NCBI GenBank assembly: GCA_021732285.1
Contig: JAKFVH010000288.1
Span: 1-64,000 of the forward strand
Source: Reyranella sp.
GTDB lineage: Bacteria; Pseudomonadota; Alphaproteobacteria; Reyranellales; Reyranellaceae
Direction: 5' to 3'
DNA length: 64,000 bases
Position 1 is the first letter of the stretch, and each line of letters starts with the position of its first letter. The translations under genes were made by a program, and so were the position numbers. This document shows, in pieces, positions 12,723 through 12,805 of the stretch. The notes under the pieces are model-generated. The model had not been told where the DNA came from. It saw only the letters and a program-made list of their open reading frames with translations, and did not search any database.

Positions 12723-12805
12723 TGGCCCTGGTCGGATTCGAACCGACATGCCCGTCCGGCGGCGATTTTCTAGATCGCTGTGTCTACCGATTCCACCACA
12801 AGGCC
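12723..12805 (-). tRNA. Class II tRNA, leucine-type body with anticodon AGA
   Basis: GGCCTTG-TG-GTGG-AATCGGTAGA-CAC-A-GCGAT-CTAGAAA-ATCGC-(14-nt variable arm)-GTCGG-TTCGAAT-CCGAC-CAGGGCC-A. All stems pair (one T-G in acceptor). D-arm matches the tRNA-Leu type; A73; CCA not encoded. Confidence 0.88.

Follow-up and report, generated by a model that had tools for sequence, protein, structure and literature searches.

A leucine-type tRNA with a serine anticodon downstream of a guide-matched target in a type I-G CRISPR-Cas locus of Reyranella sp.: a possible CreTA-like module

Inside the type I-G CRISPR-Cas locus of Reyranella sp., a tRNA gene (12723..12805, minus strand, of the 64-kb stretch of DNA analyzed here, referred to as the window) combines a tRNA-Leu(UAA)-type body with the anticodon AGA and lies just downstream of a partial target for a CRISPR RNA-like guide encoded next to it. 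The tRNA structure, its leucine identity, the anticodon, the guide, its seed match, the PAM and the position of the target can all be read from the DNA itself, and the tRNA and the guide are well supported. The best explanation is a type I-G CreTA-like module in which the putative CreT toxin RNA is a leucine-charged tRNA that reads UCU and is repressed by the guide, and we give this reading an even chance of being correct. The fuller proposal, that an RNA-guided effector holds down a tRNA that carries leucine but bears a serine anticodon, and that failure of the CRISPR system would poison the proteome with Ser-to-Leu substitutions, is held tentatively, at a little short of even, with mistranslation as the most likely route to toxicity.

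The gene was called as tRNA-Ser(aga) at 12722-12805 by ARAGORN and scored 53.3 bits with the Rfam tRNA model (RF00005) against a cut-off of 29. Read 5' to 3', the acceptor stem GGCCTTG/CAGGGCC forms seven pairs, one of them U.G; the anticodon stem GCGAT/ATCGC encloses the loop CTAGAAA (U33, AGA at 34-36, A37 and A38), the variable arm is GCC/GGC, and the T-stem GTCGG/CCGAC carries the T-loop TTCGAAT. No stem contains a broken pair, and the core letters are A14 and A15, G18 and G19, A20a, U48 and the discriminator A73. Both programs thus agree with the first-pass annotation, which had described a structurally intact minus-strand cloverleaf with anticodon AGA. The 7-nt anticodon loop, with AGA at loop positions 3-5, was placed at 12768..12774 (minus strand) from ARAGORN position 35 and a reading of the sequence, coordinates that were counted by hand and are accurate to +/-2 nt. 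Other loop registers, giving UAG or the amber anticodon CUA, were ruled out, as the pairing of the stem constrains the loop to 7 nt, with U33 in place. Compared with shuffled sequences, the bare tRNA had a minimum-energy fold with a z-score of -2.37. Two features had been missing from the first-pass annotation: a perfect 10-bp inverted repeat 5' of the gene, and the lack of an encoded CCA, the 3' end reading ...GGGCCA followed by CTCG. CCA is encoded in every other Leu or Ser tRNA gene of our comparison set that could be read to its end. CCA would have to be added to this tRNA, and a gene of the tRNA nucleotidyltransferase/poly(A) polymerase (CCA-adding) type is present.

With the anticodon excluded, the tRNA body scored +82 bits in favor of Leu over Ser, within the leave-one-out range of true tRNA-Leu (+70 to +135), whereas all true tRNA-Ser genes had negative scores (-72 to -119). 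The reference set for these log-odds comprised the Leu and Ser tRNAs of the genome itself, of two complete genomes from within its genus, of two more members of its class and of I-G neighborhoods. The closest genes are tRNA-Leu(UAA) genes, at 84% and 81% identity, with the best tRNA-Ser gene at 70%. In E. coli, leucine identity resides in A73, A15-U48, G18G19, A20a and D/T-loop contacts, and the anticodon is not used (PMC9976931, a review); every letter of this set is present. The tRNA has the features of a bacterial tRNA-Leu, including A73, A14/A15-U48, G18G19, A20a, the D/T-loop tertiary positions and a type II variable arm, and departs from one in its anticodon, AGA. A bacterial tRNA-Ser would have G73 with D and variable arms of the Ser type, from which the A73 and the log-odds set this tRNA apart. 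As the body is that of a tRNA-Leu, the ARAGORN label of tRNA-Ser derives from the anticodon alone. Sequence comparison therefore assigns the molecule a leucine-type body and leucine identity together with a serine anticodon. The isotype-versus-anticodon comparison that had been proposed earlier was run here and returned this same +82 bits, and it bears out the view that the body resembles tRNA-Leu(UAA) with the A73 of leucine identity; the claim that bacterial LeuRS makes little use of the anticodon accords with the E. coli identity set.

An unlikely alternative is that the gene is in decay, a tRNA fragment or pseudogene that may be phage-borne or mark an integration site and whose anticodon has no meaning. 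The absence of CCA and the sporadic distribution of the gene would be expected under such a scenario, tRNA genes are often situated at integration sites, and a similar tRNA occurs on one phage contig. The sequence itself argues otherwise: no pair is broken, and five stem pairs differ on both sides from the nearest tRNA-Leu(UAA) and are still paired. U33, A36-A37-A38, the T-loop and A73 are retained, and two anticodon positions differ from UAA in a 7-nt loop that is otherwise normal. A36-A37-A38 is the usual hypermodification signal in tRNAs that read UNN codons.

BLAST searches for close relatives of the tRNA in 61 genomes returned only tRNA-Leu(UAA) genes, and searches of plasmids and phages returned only tRNA-Leu genes. 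In two partly overlapping draws of 395 and 399 genomes, the window's own gene was the only one to combine a leucine body with AGA. The pattern was found in one viral contig, IMGVR_UViG_3300046471_000141 (L185; 112-194, minus strand), a phage with O-like, DnaB-like and Q-like genes in which the tRNA lies just downstream of the Q-like antiterminator. Like that of the window, this phage tRNA has a leucine-type body (+90 bits Leu over Ser), the loop CTAGAAA with AGA, and no CCA; it differs in that acceptor positions 1-2 appear unpaired and no CRISPR is nearby. An exact match to the anticodon arm in a second viral contig (L155) was dismissed as chance, no tRNA being called there, and two further candidates (L187, L188) were likewise not called as tRNAs. 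No homologs of Csb1 were found in viral contigs.

The guide is preceded by a lone degenerate CRISPR repeat (psi-R; 12919..12953, plus strand) that lies between csb1 and the tRNA, on the strand opposite to the CRISPR array, and matches Rfam CRISPR-DR16 at 36.0 bits. Compared with the 64 repeats of the array, psi-R retains the 7-bp hairpin stem and CCTC, and its 5' handle reads ATAGAAGC where the array has ATTGAAGC, identical at seven of eight bases. In a previously studied I-G system, Csb2 cleaves 4 nt past the hairpin, so that the handle is 8 nt long (PMC9638904), and this rule is consistent with the array repeat and with psi-R alike. The psi-spacer that follows, GTGGTTTCTGACGTCTTTTGGGTATCACACAACCAG (12954..12989, plus strand), was taken as 36 nt, the length of the array spacers, and the predicted guide RNA would start with AUAGAAGC. 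Its protospacer-like target of 36 nt is at 12840..12875 on the minus strand, 35-70 nt upstream of the tRNA, so that 35 nt separate the protospacer end from the gene; the first-pass annotation had placed a CreTA-like target exactly here. Over the 24 PAM-proximal nt (12875-12852, minus strand), guide GTGGTTTCTGACGTCTTTTGGGTA and target GTGGTATCTGAAGTATTTTGTGTA agree at 20 positions, with mismatches at 6, 12, 15 and 21 (17/20 over the first 20 nt), and the seed positions 1-5 and 7-11 are perfect (10/10). Pairing ends at ~24 nt, with 22/34 overall, as in CreTA targets. The second-best site for the guide in the window matches at 16/24. The target is flanked by TTC (12876..12878, minus strand), in accord with the TTN PAM published for type I-G (PMC9638904). 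It faces the tRNA and points away from csb1, and nothing else lies between the tRNA and the neighboring HTH gene.

No consensus sigma-70 promoter was found at the target. By eye, a TTGACC at 12841-12836 abuts the PAM-distal end of the protospacer, and TATATG occurs within the target. Between the TTGACC motif and the start of the tRNA, an inverted-repeat search and hairpin fold located the perfect 10-bp inverted repeat CCTACTTCCT-N10-AGGAAGTAGG (12808..12837), for which a leader hairpin of the precursor or a repressor operator are candidate roles; no second copy was found in the 64-kb window. On the guide side, an inverted-repeat search and folding predict a creA-like RNA (12894..13019, plus strand) in which psi-R and the guide are contained within 26-nt inverted arms, and the long enclosing stem gives a fold z-score of -3.65 against shuffles. 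A clear second psi-R was not found around the guide, where the stem of the 26-nt inverted arms is present instead; this long stem may replace the second repeat.

Family searches identified csb1, csb2, cas3g, cas4g-cas1g and cas2, assigning the locus to type I-G. On the plus strand, csb1/cas7g (13078..14313; TIGR02570, PF09617) is the first gene of the effector operon and is followed by csb2 (14310..15785; TIGR02165), a cas5-cas6 fusion and the presumed processing enzyme, cas3g (15752..18826; TIGR02621) and a Cas3-extension-family protein of I-G loci (18679..19869; NF049934). The minus strand carries the cas4g-cas1g fusion (10045..11814; NF049935), cas2 (9742..10035; TIGR01573, PF09827) and an array of 64 repeats found by repeat search (4793..9486; consensus CCATCCGAGGCTTCATCGCCTCGGCCTCATTGAAGC). 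No match to the large subunit Csx17/Cas8g was found in the 81%-complete assembly of this organism, in which a control search was silent too; I-G loci that begin with csb1 and carry the Cas3-extension protein may use a different large subunit. In a locus of the same genus (L071), cas4-cas1 and cas2 (589-2802) are 94-96% identical to those of the window (9742-11814), and the effector module there has a different I-G layout, with a Csb1 only 27% identical, an apparent exchange of adaptation and effector modules.

Between the tRNA and cas4-cas1 lie a Gp49 (HigB-like) toxin gene (11864-12349, plus strand) and an HTH_37 antitoxin gene (12316-12666, plus strand), both identified by family search. It had been suggested earlier that the tRNA is a substrate for cleavage by the adjacent HigB, or a decoy. 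We consider a role as HigB substrate or decoy very improbable, as homologs of the pair (65%) adjoin cas4-cas1/cas2 at the same place in L071 where there is no tRNA, and the suggestion found no support elsewhere in our analysis. HigB-type toxins, moreover, cleave mRNA on the ribosome. The Gp49/HTH_37 pair is an ordinary toxin-antitoxin pair.

What survives of the earlier interpretation is the leucine body and identity with a serine anticodon, and the CreTA-like guide aimed upstream of the tRNA; the HigB substrate and the free decoy found no support. The CreTA link had been offered as one alternative among several, and the guide, its seed, the PAM and the survey described below make it the main reading. 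In the proposed mechanism, psi-R and its spacer (12919-12989, plus strand) would be transcribed and processed by Csb2 to a crRNA-like guide, with which the I-G effector would bind the partly complementary target (12875-12840) beside its TTC PAM. Since only the PAM-proximal ~24 nt match, the effector would be expected to bind without cutting, and by analogy with CreTA (PMC8501985, PMC9458426) it would block the tRNA promoter without destroying the locus. If the effector were lost or inhibited, through mutation or an anti-CRISPR protein, the tRNA would be made, CCA added, and the freed tRNA charged with leucine, which would then be inserted at serine UCU codons with toxic effect. A34, whether deaminated or unmodified, might read further UCN codons, although this is a guess. 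We infer the promoter, guide production, repression, charging, decoding and toxicity. Of all serine codons, UCU is the least used in the likely genes of the window (15 of 13,777 codons, ~1.1 per thousand), an observation in favor of this explanation. Its rarity and competition from tRNA-Ser(GGA) also bear on the dose of mistranslation, however, and count against the explanation, and similarly designed tRNAs of nematodes accept leucine in vitro with no mistranslation detected (PMC4300185). Also weighing against it are the lack of a consensus promoter at the target, of a clear second psi-R and of an encoded CCA, the missing match to Csx17/Cas8g, and the restriction to a single genome.

The guide-repressed tRNA could also be toxic by other means, for example as an uncharged or poorly charged molecule that sits in the A site at UCU and brings translation to a halt, or by draining LeuRS or a modification enzyme. 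Charging requires an additional step when CCA is unencoded, and the known CreT RNAs disturb tRNA supply by sequestering tRNA-Arg or tRNA-Ile(CAU) (PMC8501985, PMC9458426). A pure decoy, however, would have no need of the known bacterial leucine-identity positions, all of which are kept here, and a CCA-adding-type gene exists; we regard such a mode of toxicity as improbable.

Ectopic guides of this kind were sought in a sample of I-G stretches, 19 of them taken from relatives and a further 80 from named genomes, with some genomes present in both sets, by scanning for a handle, a TTN PAM and a seed match, with letter-shuffled loci as the control. An earlier, looser scan was set aside because array repeats dominated it. 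Guide/target pairs were present in 23 of 100 I-G loci versus 0 of 100 shuffles; roughly five of these have the look of a coding palindrome or a weak repeat (L066, L071, L076, L138, L150), leaving ~18. When the PAM requirement was dropped, 10 of 11 perfect-seed, opposite-strand, non-array pairs still had TT where the PAM would lie, one of the ten (L076) being an apparent coding palindrome, and the published TTN PAM was thus recovered independently. Judging from this survey, ectopic guides appear to be a common feature of type I-G loci. Those with TTN-flanked targets near csb1 or cas3 were seen in L054, L069, L073, L079, L081, L085, L101, L102, L108, L110, L111, L112, L113, L115, L119, L120 and L132. 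L073, among the closest to the window by Csb1 (78%), has an 11/11 seed pair, and L115 has the same layout as the window, with a strong ribosome-binding site (AGGAGGTGTGG) after the target. Two repeats flank the guide in L115.

Elsewhere the target mostly points toward csb1, from which a small reading frame or an RNA separates it, and guides of this layout may belong to either kind, CreR-like or CreTA-like. In L081 (~1740-1945), in L110 (~1400-1612) and perhaps in L102, the reading frame separating target and csb1 is a similar small one, which may encode a conserved small protein subject to CreR-like control. Targets facing csb1 occur in many I-G loci, as cas self-regulation would predict, and this favors a reading without a toxin, in which the tRNA is an extra or regulated tRNA tuned by the effector, or a bystander of a CreR-like guide meant mainly for the cas operon. 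Cascade bound at 12840-12890 could also affect the adjoining guide promoter. We give this reading only a small chance, as the target of the window faces the tRNA and is separated by ~200 nt, including the guide, from csb1 downstream, and a same-strand tRNA would fall within 80 nt by chance at ~3 in 10,000 (by arithmetic from 44 tRNAs per 5.4 Mb). A leucine tRNA that reads a serine codon also has no evident ordinary use. No tRNA was found at the target in the 99 other I-G locus records, so the pairing of guide and tRNA is known from a single genome, whose assembly is 81% complete. The tRNAs near other I-G loci (Thr, Lys and Ser; L074, L101, L106, L116, L142) were rejected as counterparts because they are farther away, and those that are Ser genes also have the body of a tRNA-Ser.

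CreT toxins form a diverse group, most of them of obscure mechanism. If the CreTA-like reading is correct, the action of this CreT would be predictable from its sequence, as leucine at UCU, and CreTA-like modules would extend to type I-G. A housekeeping tRNA would have been turned on its own cell by an anticodon change and RNA-guided repression. We know of no toxin-antitoxin toxin that acts by deliberate mistranslation, and this one would be, to our knowledge, the first.

The closest known system is CreTA, a type VIII toxin-antitoxin module of Haloarcula hispanica, Halobacterium hubeiense and the Acinetobacter I-F locus, in which a degenerate repeat stands alone near the cas genes, as here (PMC8501985, PMC9458426). 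As in CreTA, the crRNA-like guide of the window comes from a non-array repeat adjoining cas genes, and its psi-spacer pairs at positions 1-5 and 7-11 with a TTC-flanked target (PMC8501985, PMC9458426). The partial, seed-matched target lies upstream of the proposed toxin gene, and in both systems that gene specifies a small RNA and runs divergently to the guide (PMC8501985, PMC9458426). The window differs from CreTA in subtype (I-G) and in that CreTA usually has two degenerate repeats whereas one psi-R was found here, with no recognized second copy and a stem enclosing the guide. Its putative toxin RNA is a genuine tRNA rather than a small mRNA-like RNA that sequesters a rare tRNA, and no CreT that is a tRNA was found in the openly accessible literature. 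The crRNA-like cas regulator CreR likewise consists of an ectopic repeat and a partly matching guide near the cas operon (PMC12737573), but the target in the window faces a tRNA and no cas gene. A parallel to the tRNA itself is provided by the nev-tRNAs of nematodes, variable-arm tRNAs that accept leucine in vitro and whose anticodons are those of Gly or Ile (PMC4300185); these are eukaryotic and constitutive, have no link to CRISPR, and no mistranslation by them was detected in cells, whereas the tRNA of the window is proposed to be held in check by the guide beside it.
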